A stretch of DNA of 62,904 nt from positions 1 through 62,904 of the IMG/VR virus record IMGVR_UViG_3300034168_001612, one strand, 5' to 3'. Position 1 is the stretch's first letter, and each line of letters opens with the position of its first letter. The stretch comes from a virus. Positions 1,543 to 28,199 of the stretch are shown here, piece by piece. The position numbers were made by a program, and so were the translations under genes. The notes beneath the pieces were generated by a model. That model made no database searches. It worked only from the letters and a program-made list of their open reading frames with translations, and was not told the DNA's origin.

Positions 1543-2937
1543 TTAAGAAAGTTGACCAGTAATATTATCCACAAGAACGTTCTTACGAGGCTGGTATCCA
1601 GCAAGACATAAGAAACGGAAATGGGCTTCTGGTAAGCTAAGATCGTTGATCGCCATTTTCAAACGAGAATATGGAGACAACTGGTGAATTCCCCAAGTAT
1701 TGGCCTGGATCAAGAACCCAGTTACTGCACCTGGACTACGATGACCAAGATCAGTAAATACTGTAGAAGCACCACCGGCAGATTTTACACGACCGATAAA
1801 TTTAGCAGAAGAAGCAGATCCACCAGCTTCAGAACGGTAAACGTTAAAATACTTAGAACCATTATTAGTAATAGTTACAGTAATTTTGTCACCAGCAGCT
1901 GCAGAAGTTGAAGCAGAAGCTGAAGAAAGTGATTCACCTCTTTCGTTTACACCAGTTACGAAATAAACGTAAGCTCCAGCAGGAAGAACTGAGTTAGCAT
2001 CAGCTGGAGAAGCAAGAACTGGAACAGCAGGAGCTGCCGGAGAACCAGAACGAGCACGAGCAGGTTTAGTTTTACCAGAAAGGAATCTAGAAGCTTCTAG
2101 AGAAACTAGAGCTGAAGAAGTCCATTGTTGTCTTAATTCAGCACCAGTCTTAGACGTAGCACTTCCACTAAGAACAATTCTTTCTTTTGCGTGAGCAATT
2201 TTATTATATTGAGCAAGAGAAATAGGATCAAGACAAAGTTTGTCAGCAGAACCGTGGTTCATAGCAGAACGAACAGCAGCATCTTCGATGATAGACTGAG
2301 TAAGAGTACCATCAGCAGAGAGAACTACAGTTTGATCTGAACCATATTCAGCAAACATAAGATCTTGAGTATTTGCCATTGCATCACTCATACGGATTTG
2401 TGCGTCAACACCAACCATATTCGGGATATCAGCGATTGAAGAAGGATCTCCAGTGAAGAAACCGTCAGAAGAGAATCCAGATTGACCTTGGAAAAGATCG
2501 AATTCAACGTCACCAGAAAGTTTCATAGCAGCATCAGAAGCAGCACGATCTTCAGCTTTAACGCCGTCAAAAGCACCAATCATGTTAGAAGCTACTGAAA
2601 CACGACGAGTTGTCGAGTAGTAAGCCATTGGAACTACAGCACGTACGTAGTTTGAAGTATCTTCTTCTCCGATACCACCTTCATACTGAGCTGAACCACC
2701 AAAAATACCGTAATCAAGTTGACGGTTAAATTGGATGAGTTGAGACTTGGCATCTTTGCTTTCAACCATTTTTTGAAGCTTGATGTGAGAATCATCCCAA
2801 GTAACGTTTTGCATAACAGGAGAAAGATCTTCTACCTGAAGTGCTGAACCTTGAGTAAGACTGTCTGGGGTTGCGTTGTAACTACCAACTTCTAGTGCCT
2901 TTACTAGCTGTTGCAGTTGTTCAATAGTGTTCGACAT
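1543..2937 (-). CDS. Major capsid protein with an inserted Ig/FN3-like domain
   Basis: This 464-residue protein is identified mainly by context and composition: it follows the acidic scaffold/core gene in one operon, has a strong AGGAGGA site, and ends in a strong terminator, as expected for the most abundant virion protein. Residues 1-70 are helical and could be a removable N-terminal arm; 70-290 and 408-464 would form the HK97-type core. Residues about 300-408 are Ala/Pro/Gly-rich and read like a fibronectin III or Ig-like beta-sandwich, with motifs AYVYFVTGVNERGES and YFNVYRSEAGG followed by a VFTDLG strand; such domains often decorate phage capsids. No hydrophobic-x-K-S-E site is seen here. 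An alternative would be another abundant head protein. Confidence 0.75.
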   Translation of the reverse strand: MSNTIEQLQQLVKALEVGSYNATPDSLTQGSALQVEDLSPVMQNVTWDDSHIKLQKMVESKDAKSQLIQFNRQLDYGIFGGSAQYEGGIGEEDTSNYVRAVVPMAYYSTTRRVSVASNMIGAFDGVKAEDRAASDAAMKLSGDVEFDLFQGQSGFSSDGFFTGDPSSIADIPNMVGVDAQIRMSDAMANTQDLMFAEYGSDQTVVLSADGTLTQSIIEDAAVRSAMNHGSADKLCLDPISLAQYNKIAHAKERIVLSGSATSKTGAELRQQWTSSALVSLEASRFLSGKTKPARARSGSPAAPAVPVLASPADANSVLPAGAYVYFVTGVNERGESLSSASASTSAAAGDKITVTITNNGSKYFNVYRSEAGGSASSAKFIGRVKSAGGASTVFTDLGHRSPGAVTGFLIQANTWGIHQLSPYSRLKMAINDLSLPEAHFRFLCLAGYQPRKNVLVDNITGQLS

Positions 2938-8531: not shown

Positions 8532-8921
8532 ATGAAAATATCGGTTAAGTTCTTGAAAAATGTAGCAAATGTAAACACTTTTCAATACGCATCTCAATGG
8601 AATATTTCCGAAGGATCGTCGCAAGTTTTGTACTTTCAATTCGTTGACAAACTTAAAGACGATCTGAGATATAAGAGCCAAGCAACCGTTATTGATGAGG
8701 TATCGGTAACGTTCTTAAACATTGATGAAGCTTCAGAAATTATCAAAATAGCCACACAGGCTTTCCCTGACGATAAATCGATATGGACTATCACTTTAGA
8801 AAGTGACGAAGTCCCAAATCCGGGTGCTGCAAAATTTTCAATAACCGAAGACGGACAAGAGCGCAGGTTCAGAGTAGAACAAGCTATTTCTGTCGATCTT
8901 CTTGACGCTGGGAGCTGCTAA
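8532..8921 (+). CDS. Virion-region protein of unknown function
   Basis: A 129-residue protein with TAGGAG before the ATG and a late-type promoter upstream. It is strand-rich and acidic (VIDEVSVTFLNIDEASEIIK, IWTITLESDEVPNPG) and ends in a Cys. Its stop overlaps the start of the next gene (TAATG), so the two are translationally coupled. I recognise no family; position before connector-type genes suggests a head or neck component. Confidence 0.6.
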   Translation: MKISVKFLKNVANVNTFQYASQWNISEGSSQVLYFQFVDKLKDDLRYKSQATVIDEVSVTFLNIDEASEIIKIATQAFPDDKSIWTITLESDEVPNPGAAKFSITEDGQERRFRVEQAISVDLLDAGSC

Positions 8922-9751
8922 TGGCTTTATTATCTGATCAAGACTACCCCAAAGATTACGGCACAAAAGGTTATCCTGTAGGAGCTGTAGACAGTAGTGA
9001 GCTATTAAAAAGAATAGAACCTATTTTAACACCCGAAAAATTAGTTAACCGATACCTAAAAGGAATCAACCTATCTCAATATTCTAACGATGATTTAAAA
9101 GATATACTTACAATTGCTGCCGATAAAGCTGAGCTTTTGATAGCCACAACTATTACTCCTGTAAAACGAAAAGAAAAACATCCTTTTGATCAAAATCTGT
9201 ATAGAAGCTTTATTCACATAATGGCGAATTTTGGCCCAATTCTTCAGATTAATAAATTTTGTATCAGAAGCTCGAACGATAAGAGTATTTTTGAAATACC
9301 AGCTGACTGGATTGACGCAGCTAGGTTTTATCAAAAACAAATAAATGTTATTCCCTTGACGGTTGTGGGAGCTACAGGCATTAGCCAAGGCCAGCCTACT
9401 GGGGCTGCTGGCTTAGCTTTTATCGCAGCAATGAATGGAGGAATTAGTTGGGTTCCTTCCTATTGGGAAATAGAGTACACGACAGGAGTGTGTACAAAAG
9501 AAGGACAAGTACCCTCTATCATAAATGAATTGATTGGATGTATTGCGGCCATCAATATTTTAGGTAACTTAGGAGCACAAAACAAAAATACTTCCATAAG
9601 TATAAGTCATGATGGTATTTCTCAATCTAGCTCTAATCCGGGTCCAAATCTGTACCAAACAAGAATTGCCGAGCTAAGCAATGAAAGAGAGATGATGGTA
9701 AAGAAAATTAAGGCTGTATTTTACAATAAACGCTTTGTTACAAATATTTAA
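8921..9751 (+). CDS. Putative head-tail connector/neck protein
   Basis: This 276-residue protein begins one base before the end of the previous gene. A helical N-terminal half (ELLKRIEPILTPEKLVNRYL) is followed by strand segments and a Gly-rich central stretch (VGATGISQGQPTGAAGLAF). The phrase WEIEYTTGVCTKEGQVP near residue 185, then a helical segment on inter-subunit-type sequence IINELIGCIAAINILG, recalls phage adaptor and connector proteins that contain a similar YTTG step before a helix. That resemblance is from memory and modest. Its neighbours are late structural genes. Confidence 0.45.
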   Translation: MALLSDQDYPKDYGTKGYPVGAVDSSELLKRIEPILTPEKLVNRYLKGINLSQYSNDDLKDILTIAADKAELLIATTITPVKRKEKHPFDQNLYRSFIHIMANFGPILQINKFCIRSSNDKSIFEIPADWIDAARFYQKQINVIPLTVVGATGISQGQPTGAAGLAFIAAMNGGISWVPSYWEIEYTTGVCTKEGQVPSIINELIGCIAAINILGNLGAQNKNTSISISHDGISQSSSNPGPNLYQTRIAELSNEREMMVKKIKAVFYNKRFVTNI

Positions 9752-9761
9752 TGATATTATA
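9752..9761 (+). promoter_or_regulatory. Early-type extended -10 motif TGATATTATA
   Basis: TGATATTATA ends 5 bases before the ATG at 9767, so a transcript starting at the usual distance would be leaderless. It spans the stop codon of the preceding gene. Confidence 0.4.
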
Positions 9762-9766
9762 ATTTT

Positions 9767-11203
9767 ATGTATAAACAAATTATACAAGAGATTAAAAAAA
9801 ACGAAAACCAACCGATTCAATCGGTACAGTCTGATGTTGTCAAAATTAATCCCGAAGATGGCAAAAAGGTAGCTCAAGCCTACCATAACATGGAACATAA
9901 TCCAGATCATCCCGAAGTAAAGCAAGCTTACGGTGCCTTGATTGATGAAACTAAACAGCAATTCAATGACTTAGTAGGTAAAGGATTGAAAATCTCCAGA
10001 ATTGAGTCTGGAATGGAAAATCCTTATAAAAATTCTAAAGAATTACATGCCGATGTTAAAAACAATGGCCACCTCTGGTATTTTCCTACAGAATCTGGTT
10101 TTGGGGGAGAGGAAAAAACTACGAATCACCCCATGTTACAGCCTGCCGGAATAACTCACGAAAATAAAGAACTTTTAGCTAACGATATATTCAGAATTGT
10201 TCATGATATAAACGGACACCATACGGGAGGTGAGTCAGGATTTGGCCCTACAGGGGAGCACAAGGCTTATTTAACTCACAAGCAAATGTATTCGCCACTT
10301 GCGGGGAAAGCATTAGCCTCGGAAACCTTAGGACAAAATTCATGGGTAAATTTCGGACCTCATGGAGATCATAATAAAAAAAACCCTTCTCAAACTATTT
10401 ATGCCGAACAAAAAGCAGGATTATTACCTGATGAAATAATCAATGGGAATTGGCATATATCAAAAAATATTGAAAAATCTGAAAAATCTTATTCTGAAGA
10501 AGAATTACTTCATTTTTTTAAGGAATACACCATGAAAAAATCTCTCGAATATACAGAAAAATATCCAGAAATACCCGAAAAAGAATTATATAAAAATTTT
10601 AATAAACTCCTGAGAAACGGCATAGCACTGATAGGTCTTGCACATGCCCACAGATATATGGACACCCCTCCGGAACAAATAAAGAATAAACTAATACCAG
10701 AAACGAGCATTTCTCAAGAAGCGGGGACTGGTAAGCAAAAAAAGATAAATAGTTTTTTAAAAACGACCTCTATGATAGAAAGCTCGGGCGGGAAAAATTT
10801 AGACCACCCTAAAGTTGCCCATGGACTACATGCAGGAGACAGAGCTGTTGGACAATGGGCACTAATGCCTAAGACAGTCAAGGAAATAGCAGGAAGGATG
10901 GCTGATGATTCTGAGATAGCTCCTTATGCTCAAATGAACAGTAAAAAAATATCACAAAAATTATCACAAAATCCTCATCATGAAAAACAGATGGCATCAT
11001 TTCTAGCCAATAAGCTTTACGATAAATTTGGAGGAGATGAAAATAAGATGGCATATGCTTGGAATCAAGGGCACAATATAGAGCCTAAGTCTTTTGATAG
11101 TGACCGAAAGGATTATTTAAATCACGATTATGTAAAAAAATATAATAAATATAAAAATCAAGATTCCTCATCCAGATCTATTGCTGGCTCTCAGAATGAG
11201 TGA
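9767..11203 (+). CDS. Two-domain polyvalent virion protein with transglycosylase-like C-terminus
   Basis: In this 478-residue protein, residues about 30-225 form a domain I have seen in large phage polyvalent proteins but cannot name. It contains IVHDINGHHTGG, a possible metal site, and the phrase SETLGQNSWVNFGPHG. A linker at 233-245 carries IEKSEKSYSEE, a candidate maturation cleavage site. Residues about 325-440 look like a lysozyme/SLT fold: catalytic-type Glu338 in SMIESSGGKN, then AVGQWALMPKTVKEIAG and MAYAWNQGHN. Such domains cut peptidoglycan during DNA entry when carried in virions. Whether the N-terminal domain is enzymatic is unknown. No ribosome site precedes the start. Confidence 0.65.
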   Translation: MYKQIIQEIKKNENQPIQSVQSDVVKINPEDGKKVAQAYHNMEHNPDHPEVKQAYGALIDETKQQFNDLVGKGLKISRIESGMENPYKNSKELHADVKNNGHLWYFPTESGFGGEEKTTNHPMLQPAGITHENKELLANDIFRIVHDINGHHTGGESGFGPTGEHKAYLTHKQMYSPLAGKALASETLGQNSWVNFGPHGDHNKKNPSQTIYAEQKAGLLPDEIINGNWHISKNIEKSEKSYSEEELLHFFKEYTMKKSLEYTEKYPEIPEKELYKNFNKLLRNGIALIGLAHAHRYMDTPPEQIKNKLIPETSISQEAGTGKQKKINSFLKTTSMIESSGGKNLDHPKVAHGLHAGDRAVGQWALMPKTVKEIAGRMADDSEIAPYAQMNSKKISQKLSQNPHHEKQMASFLANKLYDKFGGDENKMAYAWNQGHNIEPKSFDSDRKDYLNHDYVKKYNKYKNQDSSSRSIAGSQNE

Positions 11204-11211
11204 TATGTTGT

Positions 11212-11478
11212 ATGAATATGAAAAAAACTACAAATGAAAAACTTGTTGGTAAAGTAAAAAAAAGAAGCTGGGACGATCTGGCGGGTGATATAATTTCATT
11301 AGAAAATTGCATCAGAAAGGAAAAAAATTCTAAATCATTGATTTTACTCAAAAATAAGTTAAAAATATGGGAAAAGGAGAAATCTGATCGTATTTTTAAC
11401 ACTTTTGATATGAAAACTTTTTTAAACAAAAATAATGAAGAATTTGAAATAGAATATTCTACAAAAACAACCACTTAA
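11212..11478 (+). CDS. Small charged helical protein, unknown function
   Basis: An 88-residue Lys/Glu/Asn-rich helical protein (KKRSWDDLAGDIISLENCIR). The frame also opens at a GTG at 11200 overlapping the previous stop; I prefer the ATG at 11212. No family recognised. It follows the transglycosylase-type gene directly and is probably co-transcribed with it. Confidence 0.5.
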   Translation: MNMKKTTNEKLVGKVKKRSWDDLAGDIISLENCIRKEKNSKSLILLKNKLKIWEKEKSDRIFNTFDMKTFLNKNNEEFEIEYSTKTTT

Positions 11479-11496
11479 CTGTTTGAAATATCTGAA

Positions 11497-11506
11497 ATAA
11501 TCTTTA
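11497..11506 (+). promoter_or_regulatory. Late-type promoter motif ATAATCTTTA
   Basis: Exact ATAATCTTTA, 31 bases before the ATG at 11538, followed by AAAGAGG as ribosome site. Confidence 0.55.
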
Positions 11507-11537
11507 TATTATACATTATCTTGTATAAAGAGGACGC

Positions 11538-12074
11538 ATGGACATCAAAGAAGACGAAATCAAAGAAGTAAATAAATTAGGCAACCTTAATGGTGATGAA
11601 GTTAAGCTCATTACCCTGAAGGGAGGTCTTCATATTGGGATCGGCAAAAAAACTGAAAATAGCAACAAAAGCGCAATTTTAGCCATTGGATCTCATCCAG
11701 CTCTGGTCTCTTATCAAATTTCTAAGAAGTTTGAACAAAAATTTGAAGAAACTCTAAATAAAAGCGAAGGGAAGGCATCTCCCGAGGTTACTAATTATTC
11801 TAAAAATCTCTCCTCAATGAATAAGAATATTATGGGGTTAGATATCTATGCTATAAAAACTGGTGAAAATGTAGACTTCAAAATTACAAAACATAATTTT
11901 GAGATTTTTTCAATACAGGCAATTGATGATGGACAAACTCTTTCATTGAATAAAACATCTAAAAATGAAGAAAGACTATCCAAACTAGACAAGGCTGAGC
12001 TGAGTAAAAATTTGGAAAAAGCTATAAGACAATTTGCTAAAAACAGTAAATTAAAGATTAAGAAAAAATTCTAA
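11538..12074 (+). CDS. Virion-region protein of unknown function
   Basis: A 178-residue protein with an ordered N-terminal half (VKLITLKGGLHIGIGKK) and a basic C-terminal tail. It carries one hydrophobic-x-K-S-E site (TLNKSEGKAS, about residue 77). Late-type control and AAAGAGG before the start fit a structural or internal head protein. It overlaps no neighbour and is 1 base from the next gene. I recognise no family. Confidence 0.6.
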   Translation: MDIKEDEIKEVNKLGNLNGDEVKLITLKGGLHIGIGKKTENSNKSAILAIGSHPALVSYQISKKFEQKFEETLNKSEGKASPEVTNYSKNLSSMNKNIMGLDIYAIKTGENVDFKITKHNFEIFSIQAIDDGQTLSLNKTSKNEERLSKLDKAELSKNLEKAIRQFAKNSKLKIKKKF

Positions 12075-12075
12075 T

Positions 12076-12948
12076 ATGGATAAACTTAAGATCCCATCTC
12101 CTCCAAACCCTGATATTGGAATCAATCTAGATTCTCAGGATGAGTTTATCAAAAATAGAGGAGTGAATCTTGAGCATTACGCTGCCCTCCCCTCTCCGAT
12201 TGGATTAAAAGATAGAGGGGATTATAGAAGAACCGATCAATACGATTCTGTTACTTCAAACGGAATGCTTTATAAAAAAGTCGGATGTTTTACAGGGGTT
12301 ATTGTTTCAAATTCCAAAAGAAAAACCCCGGGTGAGGGTGGGATAATAGATCACTCTACTGCAAGACTTTTATTGCCTCGATTTTACAATGATAACAAAG
12401 AAATACACTTAGCCCCAGGTGACAGGGTTTTTATTAAAGATGTAGATGTTCTTGTATCAAATTATCAAAGAATGCAGTATGATCCGGGAAATTTTGATAG
12501 AGCGCAATTCCCTATTAAGTGTGTTGAATATTTAATAGATAGCAGAGGAATAGAATACAAAGAAGGGGTCCAGTTTAAAATCCAGGACGGGTATATCGAA
12601 TGGATTGATGGTAAGGATAATCCCGGAATAGACCAAGATACCGGCAAAGGAAGAGTCTATTCAGTAAGGTATAAATACAACGCCCATTGGTACATAACAG
12701 AAATACCAAATGAAGTAAGAGTGGCTCAGACATTCGGTCCAGATGGAGAAAGAGTTGCGGAAAGAATGCAATATTCGGCCATCATTCAAAGAGAATATGT
12801 TTACTATAATCAAAATAATGATATTAATAAGGACCATGGAAAAGAAAAATTGGTTAGAAATATAGAAGAGCCAAAAGACCTAATTGATACCATTTACGAA
12901 TATGAAATAAAAGTCGATATGAATGATATAGGAGAACAAGATGAGTAA
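12076..12948 (+). CDS. Virion structural protein, unassigned
   Basis: A 290-residue strand-rich protein with many Tyr, Gly and Asp (IDHSTARLLLPRFYNDNKEI, HLAPGDRVFIKDVDVLVSNY). It lies in the late gene cluster and its end overlaps the next gene by 8 bases. The fold reads as a beta-rich virion component such as a neck or baseplate-proximal protein; I cannot assign a family. Confidence 0.55.
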   Translation: MDKLKIPSPPNPDIGINLDSQDEFIKNRGVNLEHYAALPSPIGLKDRGDYRRTDQYDSVTSNGMLYKKVGCFTGVIVSNSKRKTPGEGGIIDHSTARLLLPRFYNDNKEIHLAPGDRVFIKDVDVLVSNYQRMQYDPGNFDRAQFPIKCVEYLIDSRGIEYKEGVQFKIQDGYIEWIDGKDNPGIDQDTGKGRVYSVRYKYNAHWYITEIPNEVRVAQTFGPDGERVAERMQYSAIIQREYVYYNQNNDINKDHGKEKLVRNIEEPKDLIDTIYEYEIKVDMNDIGEQDE

Positions 12949-13333
12949 GTTTTTTAGAAGAAAAATAGACGGAAGATATGCGGAAGATTCTCAAACTATT
13001 GATAATATTGAACACAATAGCGAAGCTGGTGCTCAAAAAAACATGGAAGTAGGTCCTGGATTAAAATTCATTGGAGATGCAACTTCCGAATTAAGAATAG
13101 CCCCGGGCGATCAGCTTTTTTTCTTTAAGACCACTAGCGGTCTTGGATGGGTTGAAATGTCGGAAAGTGGTAGTATAGGAGTTGTGGGATCTGCTCCAGC
13201 TGATAATACTTTCCCAATTGAAGGTCAAGTTTTCACTAGGTACTCGGCGGCAAATTATAAATATGTCAAAGCAAGTGCTGGTGTTTATCTCTATATTTTG
13301 AGGGATGACAATCAGCTAAGAATTAACCCTTAA
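12941..13333 (+). CDS. Small beta-rich virion-type protein, unknown
   Basis: A 130-residue protein overlapping the previous gene by 8 bases. After a basic N-terminus it is Gly/Ser-rich and strand-like (LKFIGDATSELRIAPGDQLF, YKYVKASAGVYLYILRDD). Size, composition and place suit a capsid decoration or baseplate-type small protein, but this is inference only. Confidence 0.5.
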   Translation: MSKFFRRKIDGRYAEDSQTIDNIEHNSEAGAQKNMEVGPGLKFIGDATSELRIAPGDQLFFFKTTSGLGWVEMSESGSIGVVGSAPADNTFPIEGQVFTRYSAANYKYVKASAGVYLYILRDDNQLRINP

Positions 13334-13346
13334 AAGGCAGTAATTA

Positions 13347-13634
13347 ATGAGTTCTTCTAAAAAATTAGAGAATTTTTTAAAAAAATCCCAAGGCGACCAG
13401 AGACAAGAGGCTGAGATAAAAAAAGCCGAGCTGATTAGTTGCCCAGACTGCGGTTTTAGTTTATATGAAGGTGGAAAAAGTTTGACGCTATGTATTTGTT
13501 ATGGAGAAGATTGGGATAAGAATATTAAAATTCAAAAGTCCGAAAAGGCCATAAAAATGCAGTTTCCTAAGAATATAGATCCAGAAAATATTGAAATGTT
13601 ATTGAATACATTAAAAAATTTGAATAAGGAATAG
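13347..13634 (+). CDS. Zinc-ribbon small protein, probable internal head protein
   Basis: A 95-residue Lys-rich protein with a compact four-cysteine knuckle: CPDCG at residues 32-36 and CIC about 17 residues later, spacing that fits zinc binding. It contains IQKSEKAIKMQ, a hydrophobic-x-K-S-E site, after the Cys cluster, and ends in an amphipathic helix. The next gene starts 2 bases later. Function unknown. Confidence 0.55.
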   Translation: MSSSKKLENFLKKSQGDQRQEAEIKKAELISCPDCGFSLYEGGKSLTLCICYGEDWDKNIKIQKSEKAIKMQFPKNIDPENIEMLLNTLKNLNKE

Positions 13635-13636
13635 AT

Positions 13637-15520
13637 ATGAAAGAGCAAATGACCTACGTAGCAATCGATGCTGATGATGTAGGAGAAAGCATTGGAGGAG
13701 CTGTAATATCCGACGATGCAGATAAGCTATCATCAATTTCCGGCAAGATAAACGCTGGAGTACAAATTTTTTCAAAATGGGCTGAATATAACGGTGGATC
13801 TGTAATTAGTAGCGGAAGTGATGAGGCTATTTTTCAGGTTCCTTCAACCAGTATTAAAGAACTAGAAGATTTGAAAAACAAATACCAGAAGCATACAGGA
13901 TTTTCCGTATCAATTGGGATTGGTGAAAAAATATCTGATGCAGCTAAAGCTTTAATCTACGCCAAGGTGAACGGTAAAAATCAAATTGTTGATTATTCGC
14001 CTGAAATAGAAGAAGTGATGAAACAATCCATCACAGGAAACTTAGACAGAGAGCAATCTGATCAAAAATTAGAAGGCGGAGTAGGTGATGAGACTGAATC
14101 ATCAGAAGTTAAATCTGACCAGCTCAAGCAAGGTCGCACAGTAGAAAAAGAACACACCGACGATGAAGCGGAGGCTGAAGAGATCGCTTTAGATCATCTC
14201 ACAGAAGATCCTGAATACTATTCAAAACTTCAGGAAATGGAAAGTAGTAAGCCTAAAACCAGAAGGCCGAAATTTGAGGAAAAAGATGAAAGTGAAGATG
14301 AAAGTGAAGATGAAAGTGAAGAGGAAGATGAAGAGGAAGATGAAGATGAAGATACCGAAGATTTAGATCTTATACAAGATCAGGATTCGGAAGAAGAGAG
14401 TGAAAATTCATTTTTAAATCAAGAAGACTTAGATCTCGATGGCCGTCCTGACAAACAAGAAGAGCACGGGGAAATAAATCCTGAAGAAGACGATATAGAT
14501 AAAGATGGAGATACAGAGCACGAAGAGGCGATGGCTTCGGAGGCTGGTGAAAAAGATAAATATAGCGATGAAGGTGATTTTTCAGATGAATATCTGGATG
14601 AAGAAGCTGAACAAGATAAGACTGAACCAGAAGGCGAAGAAGAAATACCAGAAGGCGAAGAAGAAATGCCAGAAGGCGAAGAATTAGAAGAAGATGCGGA
14701 ATCCGAGGATGAGGGCGGTCTAACTGATTCTATAGCTTCGGAAATGTCTGACGAAGATATGTCTGAAGAAGAAATACCTGACGAAGAAATGTCTGACGAA
14801 GATATGGCGGATGAAGGGGATATGACTGATGAAGATTTAAAACAAGCCATTTTTGATAGCTTGCAAATATTCAAAGAAAATAAGGATATTCTATCCTCTC
14901 TTGCCTCTCAGAGTCCTGATCTATACAATGCTCTTGTTGTTTCTTTGCAATCTATGATAGAAATGGCAAAAGAGCTTGGATACGGAGGATACGGAGATAG
15001 CTCAAAGCAAGAGACTGATCCTAAAAAAATGAAAACCGAAGATGAAGAATCAAGCGATCAGGATGAAGACATGAATCCTGAAGACTATGAAGTCTCGGAC
15101 GATGAAGGAGATATCGAAAAAAGTGAGAATTTTCATAATTTAATAAACAAAATTAATAATACAAAAAATCTTCTAGAAATGAAAAAGAAAGAAGATAAAA
15201 AACAAATGTTTTTAAGGCTTAGAGAGAAGTTAAAGAAGATAAAAAACAAAGCCCCCGATTCTGGCAAAAAACCGTTCGAGGATAAAAAAAAGAAGCCACC
15301 AAAACCTAAGAAAGTTGAGGCAGCGTCATTTTGCTCGTCTTCTAATCAAAAAATGAAAACAGCAGGTCATGATTGTCGAGCTAATGAAGACAAAGACTCT
15401 CCCATGTGTGCTGCAAGAAAAAAAATGAATTGCAGAGGAAAAAATGCCGAAAAGGGTGCTGTTGTTCAGAAATCTGAAAAATTAAAAAACTTTCTGGAAA
15501 ATAAAAGAAAAAAGAATTAG
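13637..15520 (+). CDS. Acidic head-region protein with N-terminal GGDEF/mCpol-like domain
   Basis: The 627-residue zero-frame product has three parts. Residues 5-122 read as a nucleotide-cyclase palm domain related to GGDEF and minimal CRISPR polymerase (mCpol) proteins: AIDADDVGESI (metal-type Asp11, Asp13, Asp14), SSGSDEAIF at 59-66 replacing GGDEF/GGDD, SIGIG at 92-96, and AKVNGKNQIVDY at 109-120. Residues about 170-420 are Asp/Glu-rich with short repeats and two DxDxDG-type calcium-like loops. The C-terminal quarter is basic, with a Cys module (CSSSNQKMK to KKMNC). Hydrophobic-x-K-S-E sites occur near residues 494 and 611. Whether it synthesises a nucleotide signal is unknown: the first Gly of GGDE is Ser. 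A -1 frameshift probably extends it. Confidence 0.65.
   Translation: MKEQMTYVAIDADDVGESIGGAVISDDADKLSSISGKINAGVQIFSKWAEYNGGSVISSGSDEAIFQVPSTSIKELEDLKNKYQKHTGFSVSIGIGEKISDAAKALIYAKVNGKNQIVDYSPEIEEVMKQSITGNLDREQSDQKLEGGVGDETESSEVKSDQLKQGRTVEKEHTDDEAEAEEIALDHLTEDPEYYSKLQEMESSKPKTRRPKFEEKDESEDESEDESEEEDEEEDEDEDTEDLDLIQDQDSEEESENSFLNQEDLDLDGRPDKQEEHGEINPEEDDIDKDGDTEHEEAMASEAGEKDKYSDEGDFSDEYLDEEAEQDKTEPEGEEEIPEGEEEMPEGEELEEDAESEDEGGLTDSIASEMSDEDMSEEEIPDEEMSDEDMADEGDMTDEDLKQAIFDSLQIFKENKDILSSLASQSPDLYNALVVSLQSMIEMAKELGYGGYGDSSKQETDPKKMKTEDEESSDQDEDMNPEDYEVSDDEGDIEKSENFHNLINKINNTKNLLEMKKKEDKKQMFLRLREKLKKIKNKAPDSGKKPFEDKKKKPPKPKKVEAASFCSSSNQKMKTAGHDCRANEDKDSPMCAARKKMNCRGKNAEKGAVVQKSEKLKNFLENKRKKN
15508..15514 (+). 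promoter_or_regulatory. Probable -1 ribosomal frameshift site (A AAA AAG)
   Basis: The slippery heptamer A AAA AAG is in the correct phase two codons before the TAG at 15518. Six bases downstream begin potential stems GGTCG (15521-15525) with CGACC (15551-15555), and GTGGT (15539-15543) with ACCAC (15562-15566), which interleave like an H-type pseudoknot. Stems are short, so the structure is tentative. Confidence 0.5.
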
Positions 15521-15771
15521 GGTCGCTAGATAAGACGAGTGGTGGACTACCGACCAAACAGACCACAAAGCATATTCCTAAACCCCATCACGAAGAAGGG
15601 ACTGTTAAGGGGTATAAGATAAAAGATACCGATCCGGCCACGGGCAAGGCTAAATGGATCGACGCATCCAGAGGACTAGCCTTGGATGACAATGGTGATC
15701 CCGTGTCTCCTCCTGGTCGCAGTCCTGTTAGAGGTACTAAAAATAAGCTTCCTCCTCCAGGACTTGTATGA
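15514..15771 (+). CDS. Probable -1 frameshift extension of the acidic protein (85 aa)
   Basis: Shifting -1 at the heptamer enters an open frame of 85 codons (ELGSLDKTSGGLPTKQTTKH onward) ending in TGA at 15769-15771, which overlaps the next ATG as ATGA. The frame has no ATG or GTG of its own near its beginning and would otherwise leave about 250 unexplained bases in a genome with almost no gaps. The peptide contains YKIKDTDPATGKAKWIDASR, resembling short modules found in other large-phage head proteins. The fused product would be about 711 residues. A sequencing indel is the alternative. Confidence 0.6.
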   Translation, partial: ELGSLDKTSGGLPTKQTTKHIPKPHHEEGTVKGYKIKDTDPATGKAKWIDASRGLALDDNGDPVSPPGRSPVRGTKNKLPPPGLV

Positions 15772-16532
15772 TTTTGGTGGATGTACAAATAGAAGGGAAT
15801 TTAGAACAAGATGGCAATAGAATAAAAAATAATATTCGAGAAGATCTTCATCTTGCCGTTAAAGCTATGGGTTCTAGTACTTTAAAAAAAGCAGAAGAAC
15901 TTGCTCAACAGCATCTTTCTCCAAAACTTGCCAGTATGTACAGAACCGCATTAAAGATAGAACAGCTATCAGAAGATGTAGTGATAATAGAATTGGATCA
16001 AAAAGCACTCTGGATAGAAAAAGGCCGCAAAGCAGGCTTTATGGAAGATCTCCTCAAATCTGGCACAAAAAAAGCAAAAGATGGGTCTAAATATAGGGTG
16101 ATACCTATTGGAGAATCAAAAACATCGCCTCAATCTCCTTCTGTAGGTGAAAATCTTGTGCCTGAGATAAAATCTTTTTTACAAAAAAAAGGTATCAGAA
16201 CAGGTGCGGGTGATTTAGAATTAGACAGCAGAGGAAGTCCCCGGCTTGGTAAAATAAATACTTTTAATATCAAAGATTTGAAAGATAAAAAACAAATTTC
16301 TGATAATATATCTAGAATAAGTGTTTTTCAGAATAAAAACCCTAAAACTGGAAAAGTAGAAAAAAGCATAACAGCGTTCAGGGTTATATCAGAAAAGCAT
16401 AAAGGAACGGGCAAATGGGTTCACCCAGGCACTCCTCCTGCAGAAATACTGGAAAAAGCTTTTAAATGGTCAGAACAACTATGGCAAACAGAGTTGTTTT
16501 TGGCGATTAAAGCAAAGTACGAAGGTAAATAA
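15768..16532 (+). CDS. Putative tail-completion/neck-type protein
   Basis: A 254-residue protein starting in the ATGA overlap with the frameshift extension. It begins with a strand and a long helix (NNIREDLHLAVKAMGSSTLK), continues with VVIIELDQKALWIEKGRKAG, and ends in a helix after WVHPGTPPAEILEKAF. The pattern of an N-terminal helix pair followed by a WIEKG turn is seen in phage gp10-like or tail-completion proteins. I infer a neck or tail role from that and from co-translation with the next gene (1-base overlap). Confidence 0.45.
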   Translation: MILVDVQIEGNLEQDGNRIKNNIREDLHLAVKAMGSSTLKKAEELAQQHLSPKLASMYRTALKIEQLSEDVVIIELDQKALWIEKGRKAGFMEDLLKSGTKKAKDGSKYRVIPIGESKTSPQSPSVGENLVPEIKSFLQKKGIRTGAGDLELDSRGSPRLGKINTFNIKDLKDKKQISDNISRISVFQNKNPKTGKVEKSITAFRVISEKHKGTGKWVHPGTPPAEILEKAFKWSEQLWQTELFLAIKAKYEGK

Positions 16533-17515
16533 TGTCAATATGGCAAGGCGATGTCTTTTTTAGACGAATTATAGAATTGATCCTAAGAGATGTCAGACAA
16601 AATCCGTGGCTGATTGATGATATTCTTTCGGATTTTATCACAGATCCCATGCTTTCTGGCATATACGGTCAAAAAGAGATAGAAAACGCAAAAAAATGGA
16701 TCACTGATAACGAGATATCCGTATTTCTTCCTCATAGAATGGACTTGGAAAAAATGCCTTGTATTACCATCGCTATAGGAACCAACATGGAAGATAGGAG
16801 TCTGGCCAGAATGGCTGATATGACTCATATTGTTGAAACCTTAAACCCGACTCAAGTAGGTAAGGTAGTCCCTTATATTATCTCTCCTTTTAATTACATA
16901 TCTTACAACCAAGCAACAGGTTTTTTTGAAGTTCCAGATAGTATTAACTTACTAATAATACAACCAGGAATGGCGGTGATAAACCCCCAAACAGGCGCAG
17001 GATTTATTATTGTAAGCAAAAGCAACAATGGTTTTTCTATTGCGGCAGGAACCACTATAACCTTCCCTTCAATTGGCATAATCCCAGAGTATAGGATATA
17101 TAAAGCCAGAAGAGAAATTGCAACTTTCCAAGAAAACATCTCCATAGGATGTCATGTCCACGGTGATCCAAACGCCCTTCTGTGGCTTTATTCCATAATG
17201 ATGTATGGATTGTTAAGATATCGAGAAGGATTGATAGAATCTAGAAATTTCCAAATATCCAGCTTACAGACAACCGATATGATCAGGAATGATGCGTTTC
17301 AGAGCTTCGGAGAAAATGTCTATAGTCGATTCATAACTATAACCGGTCAGGTAGAGAATACTTGGATCAAGGCTCCTAAACGTGTAATAGAGGCTATCAA
17401 TATTGTTGAAGGAATCGATGCTGGACTGGTAATAATAAACAAAGACAATGGCGAAGTACCTGGAATTATTGATCGAGAACAGGATTCTTGGGTAGCTAAA
17501 ACTGATCCGGAATAA
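16532..17515 (+). CDS. Virion structural protein, unassigned (neck/tail region)
   Basis: This 327-residue protein overlaps the preceding gene by one base. A helical N-terminus (VFFRRIIELILRDVRQNPWL) is followed by a strand-rich body and a C-terminal segment ending IIDREQDSWVAKTDPE. The composition fits a structural tail-terminator or sheath-terminator type protein in a myovirus, but I see no decisive motif. Confidence 0.5.
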   Translation: MSIWQGDVFFRRIIELILRDVRQNPWLIDDILSDFITDPMLSGIYGQKEIENAKKWITDNEISVFLPHRMDLEKMPCITIAIGTNMEDRSLARMADMTHIVETLNPTQVGKVVPYIISPFNYISYNQATGFFEVPDSINLLIIQPGMAVINPQTGAGFIIVSKSNNGFSIAAGTTITFPSIGIIPEYRIYKARREIATFQENISIGCHVHGDPNALLWLYSIMMYGLLRYREGLIESRNFQISSLQTTDMIRNDAFQSFGENVYSRFITITGQVENTWIKAPKRVIEAINIVEGIDAGLVIINKDNGEVPGIIDREQDSWVAKTDPE

Positions 17516-17522
17516 ATCTTTA
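17513..17522 (+). promoter_or_regulatory. Late-type promoter motif TAAATCTTTA
   Basis: TAAATCTTTA overlapping the stop codon of the previous gene, followed by AGAGG and the ATG at 17536. Confidence 0.55.
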
Positions 17523-17535
17523 TCTAGAGGTAAGT

Positions 17536-18168
17536 ATGGATAATTATTTAAAAGAAAAAAGCGATTTATTGTTAAAGTCACTTTATAAAAAAATGAAGAA
17601 ACTTGAACATAAAAAAAATGCCATTGAGGATGTTCTTGATTCAAATGCAACTGCTGAAATGAATCCTGACGACATCCCTACGTCCAGCTCTGGCACTTTA
17701 AATAAAGCCAAAATGCAGAAAAAACAAAAAGTGTCTGAGGATGTTAAAAAAAACGAAGAAATAATTGATAAACTTTTAAAAAATTTAGATGTGATTTCAA
17801 AAGCTTGCAAGTCAAAAATGGAAAAAAGATGCTGGGAAGGGTACGAAGCCACTCCTGGAAAAAAAGCTTATTCAGAAGGTTCTTGTCAATCTATAAAGAA
17901 AGAAGAAAAAGAAAAACCGTTCGTAGGGTATAATAAAGAAAAGCACTCCAAAGAGGGTGGTTTAAACGAAAAAGCTAGAGAAGAATACAATAGAGAGCAT
18001 GGATCGAATCTACAAGCTCCAGTTTCTTCAAAAGAAGCCAAAAAATCGCCCAAGAAAGCAGCTAGAAGAGAATCTTTTTGTGCTAGAATGTCGGGCGTAA
18101 AAGGTCCTACTAGTAAAGAAGGCAAAAAGACACCAAAAGGTGCCGCTCTTAAGAGATGGGATTGTTAA
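17536..18168 (+). CDS. Lysine-rich internal head-type protein with Cys modules
   Basis: A 210-residue, strongly basic protein. It has two modules that recur in large-phage head-associated proteins: CWEGYEATPGKKAYSEGSC, a Cys-bounded turn near residue 97, and a C-terminal unit running from GLNEKAREEYNREHGSN to the ending SFCARMSGVKGPTS...KRWDC. The function of these modules is not known to me; by charge they could contact packaged DNA. A late-type promoter and AGAGG precede it. Confidence 0.55.
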   Translation: MDNYLKEKSDLLLKSLYKKMKKLEHKKNAIEDVLDSNATAEMNPDDIPTSSSGTLNKAKMQKKQKVSEDVKKNEEIIDKLLKNLDVISKACKSKMEKRCWEGYEATPGKKAYSEGSCQSIKKEEKEKPFVGYNKEKHSKEGGLNEKAREEYNREHGSNLQAPVSSKEAKKSPKKAARRESFCARMSGVKGPTSKEGKKTPKGAALKRWDC

Positions 18169-18217
18169 TAAGTGTTTGAATTTACTGGTATAAACTGGTC
18201 TTAAAAATAATATAGAA

Positions 18218-18227
18218 TTAATCTTTA
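18218..18227 (+). promoter_or_regulatory. Late-type promoter motif TTAATCTTTA
   Basis: TTAATCTTTA within the 81-base gap before the ATG at 18250. The same decamer occurs at 49878 and, on the minus strand, at 33773-33782. Confidence 0.55.
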
Positions 18228-18249
18228 ATATATAAATCAGGGGATTGTT

Positions 18250-18990
18250 ATGTCTGAAAAGAAAATGTTTACAGCAGCAGAAGTGGCCAGAATGATTCTG
18301 GAAAAAACTCATAACACTTTAAAAAAACACGAAGATATGTTGCAAAAATCTAAAAACACTTCTCATGAAATAGATGCTGGTGAAGAGCCTAATAATGACG
18401 AGGCAGAGTGTCCTGAATCTTTAAAAGGTGAAGGAAGTTCTGAGGCTTCGGGAAATGAGCCTAAAAAAATTAAAGCTCCGGCAGAAGATAGCGAAGATCC
18501 AAGCATGGAAGACCAGTCTTTGAGTGATGATGAAAGCGAAGATGAAGAATCTGAAGAAGAAGAATCGGAAGAAAAAGAAGAACAACCTAAGTTTGAATTC
18601 AAAAAGTCTGAATCTGGTATGCACACTGTGCAGTACAAAACATTGGTAAAAAAAGAACAACCTCTTAAAAAACTAATGTCTGCAACAAGCGGTATGCCGG
18701 GAAGTGTTGCCTCAACCGGTGGTCCTTCTATAGGGTCTCAAATTGGTTTTCCAGGAATTAAAAAAGACGAAGATAAAAAAGAAGGCCAGGATATGGTCCC
18801 TAATCCAGATCCGAAAGCTCCTACTCATATTAGAAGAGAACAGGAAGGAGAAGGAAAATCAAAAACTATAACAGAAAATCAAAAAAAAGCAGGGTGGGGA
18901 CAGTCCATTTCTCCTAAGCAAAAAACAACCAATGTAGGCCAGTATCAAGGAATCAAAGCCGCACAGGAAAAAAGAAAAAAACAAGACTAG
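18250..18990 (+). CDS. Acidic internal head-type protein
   Basis: A 246-residue protein with a helical N-terminus (MFTAAEVARMILEKTHNTLK), an Asp/Glu/Ser-rich centre, then FKKSESGMHTVQYKTLVKKE, and a basic Gly/Gln-rich tail. The N-terminal segment resembles in style the first residues of the scaffold protein at 2947-3678. It has one hydrophobic-x-K-S-E site. The GMHTVQYK peptide is shared with the next gene. It is 1 base from that gene and likely co-expressed. Probable core or internal protein. Confidence 0.55.
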   Translation: MSEKKMFTAAEVARMILEKTHNTLKKHEDMLQKSKNTSHEIDAGEEPNNDEAECPESLKGEGSSEASGNEPKKIKAPAEDSEDPSMEDQSLSDDESEDEESEEEESEEKEEQPKFEFKKSESGMHTVQYKTLVKKEQPLKKLMSATSGMPGSVASTGGPSIGSQIGFPGIKKDEDKKEGQDMVPNPDPKAPTHIRREQEGEGKSKTITENQKKAGWGQSISPKQKTTNVGQYQGIKAAQEKRKKQD

Positions 18991-18991
18991 T

Positions 18992-20488
18992 ATGGAAAAA
19001 GACAATAAAATTCAATACAAAATTCTTAAATCTGAAGCTTGCGGTCATACTATCGAGTATAAGATGGTAAAGAAAGAACATGAGCTTGAAAAAGCTCGTA
19101 TTGATGAGGGATTGTCTTCTAGAGAAAAAATGAAAGCTCGTGAGGCAAGATCTTCTAAAGAAAGAGAACCGAGAGAATTAAGCCCTGAACAGTATGAGAC
19201 TGGTAAAAAAATAGCCCGGACTAAGGCTGTCACTGCTACAGGCGAAAAACAAAGAAAAGAAACTCTTAAAGATGTTCTTCATACACATAAGCAAAATGCT
19301 CCTAAATCTCCTTCCAAGGAAGATCTAGAATACCCTATGGCTGCTAGTGAAAAAGAATGTTTGTGCAAAGATTGTGATTGTGATAAAAAAGAAATGAATA
19401 AAAGAGAAAAATTCTATATTCAAAAGATTCAGGAATTGAGGAAATTTGGTTTTGATCAAAAAGAATTTGAAACAGGCTTAAGACAAAAAGTTGCTGCTAC
19501 GGCTGATCAACAACGGCAGCAAAAAGATACAAGTTTAGAAAATACTGGAATTGTTAATCGAAATCGAGCCGCCTTTGGTCAGCCCATGGCTACGCAAGGA
19601 ACTCAAAGCAGTATGGGCGATTATGTTTTAAAAGACGCTCCTCAAAGAGGGGAAAGAGCCGGAACAGCTTCTGTTAATCAAATGACAGGAATGAATAGAA
19701 TGTTACCTGCTTCTGCCTCTTCAGCACAAGGTCCGTCAGCACAAGCTCCTGCTCCTGCTGCTGGACAAGCTCCTGCTCCTGCTGCTGGACAAGCTCCTGC
19801 TCCTGCTGCTGGACAAGCTCCTGCTCCTGCTGGTGCTGCTGCACCGCAAAGGATGCAATTTGGGAAAGATAGCGGCGTGAATTTTAAAGATGCTTTCGCA
19901 CAAGCTAGGAAATCAGGTAATCAAGAATTTGACTGGTATAATCCTAAAACAGGTAAAACGCAGCCATATCATACCCATTCAAAAGAAGAATTTCAACAAG
20001 GTAAAACTCTTGCTGCTGGAAGAAATCCTGAAGGATTTCAATCACAGACTATAGGCGCTGATAATAAGTATTTCAAAGGTTATCAAGCTCAACAAAAAGC
20101 TGCTCCTACAGCACAAGGTCCTGTCGCTGCTCCTACAGCACAAGGTCCTGCCGCTGCTCCCGCAGCAAAAGCGCCAAATCCAAATGCGAACATAACGGGT
20201 GTAAATACAAATGGTTCTATTTCTTCAACAGAATCTGATGGAAGAAAAACATTAACCATGCCTCAAAATTCTATATCAATGGCTCGTCCTGATCAAATGG
20301 GAATGGCACCAGCTCTAAACGAGCCAGGTAAAGTAGGAATGAAAATTCCTGGTGCCTCTGTTAAATATCCAGAAGCCGAAGGTTTTAAATCTGGAGATAC
20401 GGCCACAACCCAAGCTCCTACGAGTGAGCAGGCTGAAGGAAATATAAAATATAATAAAAATAATAAATTAAATGCGAATATGGGATAA
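18992..20488 (+). CDS. Ala/Pro/Gln-repeat internal head-type protein
   Basis: The 498-residue protein opens IQYKILKSEACGHTIEYKMV, containing a hydrophobic-x-K-S-E site and a copy of the H-T-[IV]-x-Y-K peptide also seen in the preceding protein. A Cys cluster (ECLCKDCDCDKKEM, near residue 126) may bind metal. The centre has four tandem copies of an eight-residue QAPAPAAG unit and, further on, two AAPTAQGP units. The rest is Gln/Gly/Ala-rich and probably disordered. Function unknown; position points to the virion. Confidence 0.55.
   Translation: MEKDNKIQYKILKSEACGHTIEYKMVKKEHELEKARIDEGLSSREKMKAREARSSKEREPRELSPEQYETGKKIARTKAVTATGEKQRKETLKDVLHTHKQNAPKSPSKEDLEYPMAASEKECLCKDCDCDKKEMNKREKFYIQKIQELRKFGFDQKEFETGLRQKVAATADQQRQQKDTSLENTGIVNRNRAAFGQPMATQGTQSSMGDYVLKDAPQRGERAGTASVNQMTGMNRMLPASASSAQGPSAQAPAPAAGQAPAPAAGQAPAPAAGQAPAPAGAAAPQRMQFGKDSGVNFKDAFAQARKSGNQEFDWYNPKTGKTQPYHTHSKEEFQQGKTLAAGRNPEGFQSQTIGADNKYFKGYQAQQKAAPTAQGPVAAPTAQGPAAAPAAKAPNPNANITGVNTNGSISSTESDGRKTLTMPQNSISMARPDQMGMAPALNEPGKVGMKIPGASVKYPEAEGFKSGDTATTQAPTSEQAEGNIKYNKNNKLNANMG
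19742..19837 (+). repeat. Four tandem 24-bp repeats encoding QAPAPAAG
   Basis: The unit CAAGCTCCTGCTCCTGCTGC plus TGGA is repeated almost perfectly; the fourth copy diverges at its end. Near identity at DNA level, including silent sites, suggests recent expansion by slippage or recombination. Confidence 0.85.
20098..20161 (+). repeat. Two tandem 27-bp repeats encoding AAPTAQGP-type units
   Basis: Two nearly identical copies of a 27-bp unit (GCTGCTCCTACAGCACAAGG and following) and a degenerate third copy, in the same gene as the 24-bp repeat. Confidence 0.7.
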
Positions 20489-20710: not shown

Positions 20711-22867
20711 ATGGCACAACGATTAACTACTAGCTTTGTAAACACCAACATCCCCGGTGCTTACCCAAGCGTAACAGTAAAGTCAACCCCGGTAGGCATT
20801 TCTAGTACTGGAGATATTGTTATTATCGGAGAAGCCGAAGGCGGCGCTGATTTTACACAAGACGCACTTAAAGATAACTTTTTTACTGCCACTCAATTAA
20901 CAAGAGTGAAAGCAAAATATCTGAGAGGACCAATAGTTGACGCTATGGCGGCGCTTATTTCTCCAAGCAATGACACCAATATCCAAGGATCGATTGGTAA
21001 AGTCTACATTATTAAAACTAATGGTGGATCAAAAGCATTGGCAAGTATGGGTGCTTCTCCATCGGGTGTTTACGGCTCTCTTTCTGATAAGAATTTTGGT
21101 GCAGATGGAAATAAATATTTTTTCAAGATAAGTCAAGTAGAATCTGAAGTTGCTCCTTCTATCACAGGAAATAGCTTAGCTCCATTTACTGCCACAGACT
21201 TTGACGCTCTTTCTTTTTCTGTAAGATTGAATGGTGGAGCGGAAGTAGCAATTACCTTAGGTACTGGTACTCATGCTTCTCTTGCTGCTCTTGCTTCTGA
21301 AATTGATGCCCTTTTGCCAGCTGGAATGAGCTGTGCAGCAGTTCCTGCCAGTAATTCGATTGCTATCTCTGTTGACGCAGATGCAGCCGCTAATGGAAAA
21401 GGATCTGGTAAATCATTTGAATTGATTGACTCTACCCCGGGTGATTTGGCAGTTTTGGGTCATGATGAAGATCTTATCGTTTCCTCTCAAGAGCCAGAAG
21501 TTCAAATAGCTATCAATAGACAAGATACGAACACTAACGAATCTTTCATGGCAGAGGCTCAAATAGCTATATCTGTAGGATATGATGGTACTAGTGCTAT
21601 TCTTTCAATTTCATCAGGAAGCCTTACAACTACTGTAGTTGGCGGATCTGGCTCTAGTCTAAGTATCGCTCTTAGCGAATTTACAACTATGTCCGACCTT
21701 GCTGCTTTCATTAATTCTCAAGCAGGATATTCTGCTTCTTCAGTTTCTTCTTCTAATAATCTAAGCCCGCTTAAATTGGATGAAGTAGCTGCTATCGGAA
21801 TTGCTACATCTGGCGGATTTGAAGCTGGAAGAATTAAAAGAGCACTTTATAACTTTCAAAATAAAATTGCATCAAGTTCTGTTCTTGATTTTGAAGCATC
21901 TGCTGCTGCAGGATTGCCGGCTGAAATGGCTGCTTCTCAATTCTTAGCAGGAGGAGCAAAAGGTTCTACAACTGCTGCTGATATTGCAAATTCTATCCCT
22001 TCTTTAGAGGGTGTTAAAGTTAATTTTGTTATTCCTCTGTTCTCTAGAGATGCCTCTGAAGATATCGCAGATGGTTTGACTGAATCTACTTCTACTTATA
22101 CAATTGACGCTATTAACGCTCTTGTTAAGTCTCACGTTCTTGCTATGTCAACTCCAAAAATGAAGAGGAACAGAGTAGCTATGCTCAGTAAACAAGCAAG
22201 CTATGCAGCTACAAAAGAAGCGGCGGCTTCTTTGTCTAATTACAGAGCTAACATGTTTTTCCAAAGATCAAGCCAAGTTAATTCTCTTGGTAATGTTACA
22301 GAGTACCAACCATGGCATGCGGCCTGTATTGCAGCTGGTATGCAAGCTGCAGGATTTAACAAGTCTCTGACTAATAAATTCGCCAATGTTATCAGTTTTA
22401 AAGATCCTGCTGGATTTGATTCTGGTAATCCGGGTGATGTTGAAGATGCAATTGATGCAGGATTATTTTTCATGCAACAAGAAACAGCTGGGAACAAGTG
22501 GGTGGTTGATCAAACTACTTACGGTTTTGACACAAATTTTGTGTACAACTCACTACAAGCCGTATATATGGCCGATGTTCTTGCGATTCAATTGTCTGAA
22601 TCTCTTGAAAAATTTGCAGTAGGACAATCTCTTGCTGATATTACTTCTGCAGGAATTGTTGCCTTCATTTCTAAAAAAATGGAAGAATATAGAAAGCTTA
22701 AAATCATTGGGGCTTCTGATGACGCTCCTTTGGGATATAAAAATGTTAGCGTTTCTATCAATGGCCCTATTGCAGAAGTTAAACTTGAAGCTAAACTTGC
22801 TACGGCAATCTTGTTCATACCAATTGAATTAGAATTGAGCCAAATCCAGTCTAGCGCATCAGCATAA
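20711..22867 (+). CDS. Contractile tail sheath protein
   Basis: A 718-residue protein. The N-terminus FVNTNIPGAYPSVTVKSTPV, then a VIIGEAEGGAD loop, is the hallmark of tail sheath subunits, and the C-terminal domain ends with LGYKNVSVSINGPIAEVK and LATAILFIPIELE, the conserved sheath-to-tube handshake region. Sheath subunits polymerise around the tail tube and contract at infection. The central part (about 150-420) is Ser/Ala-rich and probably an exposed insertion. AAGGAG precedes the ATG. The tube gene follows 24 bases later, the standard myovirus order. Confidence 0.9.
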   Translation: MAQRLTTSFVNTNIPGAYPSVTVKSTPVGISSTGDIVIIGEAEGGADFTQDALKDNFFTATQLTRVKAKYLRGPIVDAMAALISPSNDTNIQGSIGKVYIIKTNGGSKALASMGASPSGVYGSLSDKNFGADGNKYFFKISQVESEVAPSITGNSLAPFTATDFDALSFSVRLNGGAEVAITLGTGTHASLAALASEIDALLPAGMSCAAVPASNSIAISVDADAAANGKGSGKSFELIDSTPGDLAVLGHDEDLIVSSQEPEVQIAINRQDTNTNESFMAEAQIAISVGYDGTSAILSISSGSLTTTVVGGSGSSLSIALSEFTTMSDLAAFINSQAGYSASSVSSSNNLSPLKLDEVAAIGIATSGGFEAGRIKRALYNFQNKIASSSVLDFEASAAAGLPAEMAASQFLAGGAKGSTTAADIANSIPSLEGVKVNFVIPLFSRDASEDIADGLTESTSTYTIDAINALVKSHVLAMSTPKMKRNRVAMLSKQASYAATKEAAASLSNYRANMFFQRSSQVNSLGNVTEYQPWHAACIAAGMQAAGFNKSLTNKFANVISFKDPAGFDSGNPGDVEDAIDAGLFFMQQETAGNKWVVDQTTYGFDTNFVYNSLQAVYMADVLAIQLSESLEKFAVGQSLADITSAGIVAFISKKMEEYRKLKIIGASDDAPLGYKNVSVSINGPIAEVKLEAKLATAILFIPIELELSQIQSSASA

Positions 22868-25338: not shown

Positions 25339-25355
25339 TAACAAAGGGAGAAAAA

Positions 25356-26377: not shown

Positions 26378-26384
26378 TTTTTTA

Positions 26385-26394: not shown

Positions 26395-26411
26395 GTATTA
26401 AGGAGTAATCA

Positions 26412-28196: not shown

Positions 28197-28199
28197 AAA

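Follow-up and report, generated by a model that had tools for sequence, protein, structure and literature searches.

Panoptes OptS/mCpol (minimal CRISPR polymerase) proteins, represented in the PDB by KpOptS (9mnr, 9pd0) and an mCpol (9nwn), are the closest described relatives of the phage domain analyzed here. In KpOptS, catalysis depends on the metal-binding residues D6 and D57, and the adenine is contacted by S30 and N34 (PMC12657218, PMC12657230; Nature 2025). Work on VnOptS indicates that mCpol products differ according to which residue occupies the S30 position (PMC12657218). Panoptes effectors besides the S-2TM-β type exist, linked to CARF and SAVED (PMC12657218). The phage answers to cyclic-nucleotide defense known so far are degradation or sequestration of the signal, and Panoptes has been described as a host trap for exactly these answers. 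Two further groups share the palm fold, the Cas10/Csm1/Cmr2 palm domains of type III CRISPR, which belong to the same palm-cyclase superfamily, and the GGDEF diguanylate cyclases. A precedent of another kind comes from phage T4, whose head proteins IPI-IPIII and Alt are packaged, processed by the prohead protease, injected, and active at once.

The stretch of DNA analyzed here (the window) comprises 62,904 nucleotides of the IMG/VR virus record IMGVR_UViG_3300034168_001612. It encodes a domain that shares with OptS/mCpol the fold, the length, and ~30% sequence identity, together with the catalytic Asp pair, the base-contacting Ser/Asn, and the GxG and K..GK motifs. Unlike OptS, this version is phage-encoded, is fused to a 500-aa acidic/helical/basic tail, lies among virion genes without a 2TM-β effector gene, and falls in a separate clade. 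Whereas Cas10 has two palms and Csm/Cmr partners, the phage domain is a stand-alone single palm with no HD domain and no RNA-guided complex, and it matches the Cas10 palm profile only weakly. With GGDEF proteins it has in common the palm fold, with Foldseek TM values of about 0.5-0.7, and a hairpin of the GG(D/E)E type, and phage-encoded GGDEF proteins, for example from Bacillus phage SP-15, occur among the BFVD matches; however, this likeness is much weaker than that to OptS, and the base-contact residues in the window are OptS-like. The logic of T4 IPI-IPIII and Alt is what we propose for the phage mCpol, although packaging and injection are not shown here, and where the injected T4 proteins act by enzyme inhibition or ADP-ribosylation, the activity of the phage mCpol would be nucleotide cyclization.

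Identity and architecture of the phage mCpol protein

The Pfam mCpol family, PF18182, matches residues 7 to 120 of the window protein with 70.3 bits (E = 2.3e-19; cut-off 26.4), covering profile positions 1 to 114 of 114. When the PDB was searched with the same protein by phmmer, only two sequences were returned, 9nwn and 9mnr/9pd0, both of them OptS/mCpol (E~1e-10). An AlphaFold2 model of the domain, computed from an input of 18 family members, has a pLDDT of 94.9. The six best Foldseek PDB matches to this model are all OptS/mCpol (9mnr_A, OptS: TM 0.82 on the query and 0.89 on the target), with GGDEF, adenylyl cyclase, and Cas10 structures behind them at lower scores. By the model and the Foldseek comparison, the domain has the mCpol fold and none of the additional domains found in Cas10. 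The PF18182 cut-off is passed by 14 of 15 related records, the Myxococcus phage Mx1 falling slightly under it, and a PHROGs search gave no credible family for the mCpol domain. The identity and fold of the domain are thus shown, and we have little doubt that the ORF joins an mCpol domain to a virion-block protein.

Two other assignments were considered and rejected. A GGDEF diguanylate cyclase is excluded by the absence of a PF00990 match at E<=1, by the motif GSDEA, and by the far better match of the OptS structures. A Cas10 fragment is excluded by the PF22335 (palm2) score of 18.7 bits, which is below the 27-bit cut-off, by the presence of a single 120-aa palm, and by the low scores of Cas10 domains (<=24 bits) with a profile built from the phage mCpol family. 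An earlier note, made from the sequence alone, had called the domain "GGDEF/mCpol-like." The mCpol part of that name held, with support from the profile, the PDB sequence matches, the predicted structure, and the conserved active site, and the GGDEF part failed; the domain is present on the ORF as observed, and its four motifs sit where the note had placed them. The note would have been refuted by the lack of a structural match to palm cyclases, which is not the case, OptS/mCpol being the best matches.

An AAGGAA at 13626-13631 provides a good ribosome-binding site ahead of the ATG. The full-length model of the 627-aa protein shows a confident mCpol domain, a disordered linker, a helical domain at residues 398 to 446, and helices in the basic C terminus (Table 1). 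An mCpol domain, a low-complexity linker (20-53% D+E), and a 50-aa helical domain constitute the architecture of every non-truncated copy, and the helical domain is found in all non-truncated family members, including Mx1. Searched against PDB profiles, the helical domain matched a designed repeat protein and chance-level helices and nothing else. The fusion that the earlier note had pointed out, to an acidic head-region protein, held and is conserved within a virion gene block; the region joined to the domain is strongly acidic (45% D/E, pI 4.05). We take the entire ORF to be the functional unit, the mCpol domain itself stopping at about residue 120-125. In one relative (L088:6495-7772) the mCpol gene lies in two frames with the break inside the domain, which may reflect a sequencing error or a broken copy.

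Table 1. Features of the mCpol gene and its surroundings; positions are those of the window unless given as residues of the mCpol protein.
Feature	Position	Strand	Remarks
Major capsid protein	1543..2937	-	phrog_752, E=2.2e-44
Virion structural protein, upstream	12076..12948	+	phrog_1004, head and packaging; member of the conserved block
Zinc-ribbon-like gene, immediately upstream	13347..13634	+	CxxC...C; adjoins the mCpol gene in nearly all relatives
ORF	13637..15520	+	627 aa; mCpol domain followed by acidic linker, helical domain, and basic C-terminal tail
mCpol domain	13655..13996	+	Residues 7-120; PF18182, PDB matches, AlphaFold2, Foldseek
Motif 1, AIDADDVG	13661..13684	+	Residues 9-16; D11 corresponds to KpOptS catalytic D6 (alignment)
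S35...N39	13739..13753	+	Equivalents of KpOptS adenine-contact S30 and N34 (alignment)
Motif 2, SGSDE	13811..13825	+	D62 corresponds to KpOptS catalytic D57; degenerate GGDE β-hairpin
Motif 3, KVNGKN	13964..13981	+	K110, G113, K114; presumed to bind triphosphate; without variation in the phage set that retains D11
Acidic, mostly disordered linker	14012..14824	+	Residues 126-396; D/E 45%, pI 4.05; low pLDDT
DUF5661 match inside the linker	residues 158-203		PF18905, E=2.4e-12
Conserved helical domain	14828..14974	+	Residues 398-446; LxxFKxNKxxL...NPxLYxxLxxxLxxMIxMAK
KSE of the DIEKSE motif	15119..15127	+	Residues 495-497; possible protease site before the basic C-terminal extension (inferred)
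Immediate downstream gene	15768..16532	+	phrog_16819; conserved neighbor
Phage "termination protein"-like gene	16532..17515	+	PF23932, phrog_1000; conserved neighbor, survey key
Tail sheath	20711..22867	+	phrog_279, E=2.8e-29

Gene neighborhood and distribution

A first survey, by profile scan of IMG/VR, gave 19 loci, and a second IMG/VR scan, keyed on the neighboring tail-terminator-like gene, gave 65. The mCpol gene is present in 47 of these 65 loci, which are all 47 viral contigs with enough upstream sequence, and it always occupies the same place. In the remaining 18 the terminator gene lies within 2.15 kb of a contig edge, and in 8 of them the helical domain is itself truncated at that edge; because all 18 end near the terminator gene, none is a clear case of absence. 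A one-off acquisition or an assembly artefact is excluded by the presence of the gene in 47 of 47 loci. Each record searched holds a single mCpol copy, the one exception (G009) having a second match that is weak and sub-threshold.

The record of the window carries major capsid, portal, sheath, and terminase genes and is viral. The order phrog_1004, the gene at 12941, zinc ribbon, mCpol, the gene at 15768, terminator, sheath, and tube is the same in loci whose identity ranges from 93% to 38%, with small genes going undetected in some. In the isolate Mx1 the order is largely kept, relatives of the zinc-ribbon gene and the gene at 12941 being undetected, and the full-length Mx1 protein used as a query found no matches among the viral contigs. 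Synteny with the phrog_1004, terminator, and sheath genes thus places the mCpol gene at a conserved position in the virion block, and its universal conservation at this one place in a myovirus lineage is shown.

Whether the product resides in the head is a separate matter. The earlier note's "internal head protein" held in part: the virion-block position is confirmed, and the head location remains plausible, not shown, for a gene flanked on one side by neck/connector-type genes and on the other by those for the tail terminator and the sheath. Across the lineage, the virion block is strongly enriched in the motif [ILVFM]xKSE, with 10 occurrences in Mx1 against 0.49 expected, 9 against 0.43 in L097, and 6 against 0.8 in the window (the regions being 2947-3678 on the minus strand and 8532-20488 in the window, and relatives including Mx1); four KSE occur in the 243-aa protein adjoining the capsid gene. 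T4 provides the basis for reading KSE as a maturation-protease site, and by this analogy the motif may be a prohead protease site, although no prohead protease gene was identified. The mCpol protein contains two KSE sites, at residues 495-497 and 612-614. Since both are behind the helical domain, cleavage would be predicted to leave mCpol, linker, and helical domain joined, and their presence is compatible with putative processing alongside the head proteins.

We also searched for the partners of known systems. No Cap15/S-2TM-β effector (PF18153) was found in 10 phage records. In the control locus L036, from a bacterial Pseudogemmobacter, the mCpol gene overlaps a Cap15-type 2TM-β gene (PF18153) beside a CBASS operon, with what we take to be, from naming by eye, patatin, CD-NTase, and E1/E2 genes; this locus is textbook Panoptes. 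Two features of Panoptes are not met by the window gene. One is the two-gene operon with a 2TM effector, the mCpol neighbors being virion genes without PF18153 (CARF-type effectors were outside the search); the other is a bacterial host gene, often near CBASS, the window being a viral record. A SAVED profile search gave no matches anywhere, the control signal being absent as well; a search for Acb2 with PF13876 found no sponge, and this model is also silent on T4, which has Acb2 (vs.4). No 2H phosphoesterase (PF13563) was found.

Several other genes deserve mention. Directly upstream of the terminase-like gene and the portal gene, the window encodes a Cpn60/TCP-1 chaperonin (26412-28196), and at 51639-55262 it encodes a bacterial-type DNA polymerase III α subunit with a PHP domain. 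The enzyme cargo among the head/neck genes varies in the lineage: the window has an SLT transglycosylase (9767-11203), another locus (L031:4423-5073) a protein with two H-x-S/T motifs and no Pfam match, and Mx1 (24404-30710) long genes annotated NUDIX and kinase.

Active-site conservation and descent

By alignment, the catalytic Asp pair and the Ser/Asn base contacts of KpOptS are all four kept in the window protein, and the motifs extend over SSGSDEAIF (residues 58-66), SIGIG (92-96), and AKVNGKN (109-115). The presence of these active-site residues is shown. The GG-D-E hairpin reads G60 S61 D62 E63 in the window and A-A-D-G in KpOptS. The earlier note had placed the Ser at the first Gly, which is incorrect since it is the second (S61), and had argued that it makes activity uncertain; because KpOptS is active with A-A-D-G at the hairpin, Ser61 is no argument against activity.

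A non-redundant set of 18 phage members that retain D11 (<70% identical to one another) has 14 invariant columns out of 121, including D11, D13, S35, D62, G94, G96, K110, G113, and K114; the invariance of D11 in this set is a consequence of how the set was chosen. Across 35 phage rows, the residue at this position is D in 26, N in 8, and S in Mx1. Position 14 is not conserved in relatives, Asn being commonest, and position 39 varies widely in the phage copies (N, D, K, E, R). The proposal that Asp 11, 13, 14, and 62 are key was therefore partly borne out, with D11 and D62 key, D13 invariant, and D14 unconserved; homologs lacking these Asp residues, which would have spoken against the earlier note, are not found in the window's own clade, where only D14 varies. 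On balance we favor the view that the window domain is catalytically competent, an activity inferred from its residues.

In the comparison of the window with L017, the linker has a dN/dS of 0.13 and the mCpol part one of ~0.035; the majority of the other pairs approach saturation. In a maximum-likelihood tree the phage copies fall on one side (95/85) and bacterial mCpol and Cas10 on the other. The eight D11N members, L070 among them, and Mx1, which is on a long branch, form one group (97/99), and G113 is gone too in several members of the D11N sub-clade. The Mx1 copy, WNM70340.1, has lost both Asp and both Lys and retains the domain, its helical partner, and its position. Thus, the catalytic-looking site has been kept in most of the lineage and has decayed in one branch, and the domain persists throughout. 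Because Mx1 keeps the domain without the Asp and Lys residues, there must be a use independent of catalysis, at least there. PF18182 cross-matches Cas10 in bacterial genomes (~30-48 bits, in one case 84), and the bacterial counts were therefore screened with the family profile and for ORF length. Apart from Cas10, the 398 Pseudomonadota genomes yielded a single match, which was the seed genome itself. As mCpol is this rare in bacteria, a gene carried by an entire phage lineage may serve a more general job.

Proposed function and rival explanations

We propose that the phage protein is a virion-associated cyclase that mimics OptS and holds Panoptes-type effectors off. Its helical/acidic part would fix the protein in or on the particle, with several mCpol copies near enough to pair. 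Inside the cell, the mCpol would join two NTPs into a 2′,3′-type cyclic dinucleotide such as 2′,3′-c-di-AMP; that the NTPs contain adenine is predicted from Ser35. Such a product would be the signal that OptS itself uses to hold OptE/2TM-β, the Panoptes effector, off. The phage would thereby tell the host that "all is well" even while it, or sponges of its own, draw down the cyclic nucleotides, which would amount to an enzymatic counter-defense through OptS mimicry with the effector absent. Destroying or sequestering the OptS signal triggers Panoptes, and hence a phage meeting both CBASS and Panoptes would gain by making it. Catalysis, product, particle location, and function are each inferred, and we judge that the chain as a whole more probably fails at some link than holds throughout. 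A bolder form, in which the OptS-like cyclase is packaged and injected and delivers a ready-made "all-clear" cyclic dinucleotide, is no more than a possibility. The strongest counter-argument is the D11N/Mx1 branch, which favors the fused protein having a structural role as well, in that branch if not beyond it.

The main rival, a possible one, is such a role in structure or in nucleotide binding. The mCpol fold would have been recruited long ago as an assembly or oligomerization module of a head/neck-associated protein, where NTP binding may regulate assembly and catalysis would be beside the point. It is supported by the universality of mCpol in the virion block, by the retention of domain, helical partner, and position in the D11N sub-clade and the degenerate Mx1, and by the formation of the OptS active site between protomers (PMC12657218), so that the fold self-associates. 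Against it, the invariant columns outside the D11N branch are largely those of the active site, and metal-binding Asp and phosphate-binding Lys residues would not be expected to last in a pure scaffold.

It is also conceivable that the protein is an active cyclase with another purpose, providing a decoy that sits on or blocks CBASS, type III CRISPR, or other nucleotide-triggered effectors, or a signal that resets host physiology or lysis timing. The same catalytic-residue evidence supports this as supports OptS mimicry, and the variation reported for VnOptS together with the variability of position 39 in phages means that products may vary. However, S35 and N39 of the window match the adenine-selective KpOptS, and no partner gene of another pathway was recognized.

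The last two alternatives appear very unlikely. A phage-borne Panoptes with an unrecognized effector, guarding the infected cell against sponge-carrying competitor phages, would fit with mCpol being the signal-making half of Panoptes and with the existence of non-S-2TM-β effectors (PMC12657218), but bacterial effectors are operonic whereas the neighbors here are virion genes, and PF18153 is absent from the 10 records. A sponge, which would bind rather than make cyclic dinucleotides and so sequester the host signal, could describe the possibly binding-only D11N clade and Mx1, but mCpol binds substrate NTPs between protomers and is not known to have a product-binding feature, most members retain the catalytic residues, and sequestering the OptS product would trigger Panoptes, not block it. 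The earlier note had offered both synthesis of a nucleotide signal and sequestration of a ligand; with activity inferred, sequestration is the less likely of the two because the metal- and triphosphate-binding residues are kept.

In the literature searched we found no report of a phage mCpol, nor of its fusion to a conserved protein of the virion block; the mCpol family as such was already known. If OptS mimicry is correct, the phage cyclase would carry the race one step further, the trap being disarmed by a supplied inhibitor, and such phages are predicted to carry sponges without penalty. Even if the protein is non-catalytic, a fold described so far from bacterial defense is a core part of a widespread virion gene block. 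Since most members keep the active-looking site and one sub-clade has lost it, the lineage constitutes a natural experiment on the site's purpose, and the hypothesis can be put to the test with a single purified domain and with the isolated relative Mx1.

Further mCpol fusions were observed. In the 110-kb viral contig IMGVR_UViG_3300009503_000022 (L032:5667-11672), one open frame of 2002 codons holds mCpol and a full GGDEF domain together with ATP-dependent DNA ligase, LigD primase-polymerase, sigma-70-like, and LigD 3′-phosphoesterase domains, and is thus a polyprotein with two different palm cyclases. In another phage type, at L028:6300-8825 and in L029, an mCpol with the motif GGDD is fused to HEAT repeats in a gene lying among apparent baseplate genes; the main lineage is thus not the only one with an mCpol fusion, this being a second.
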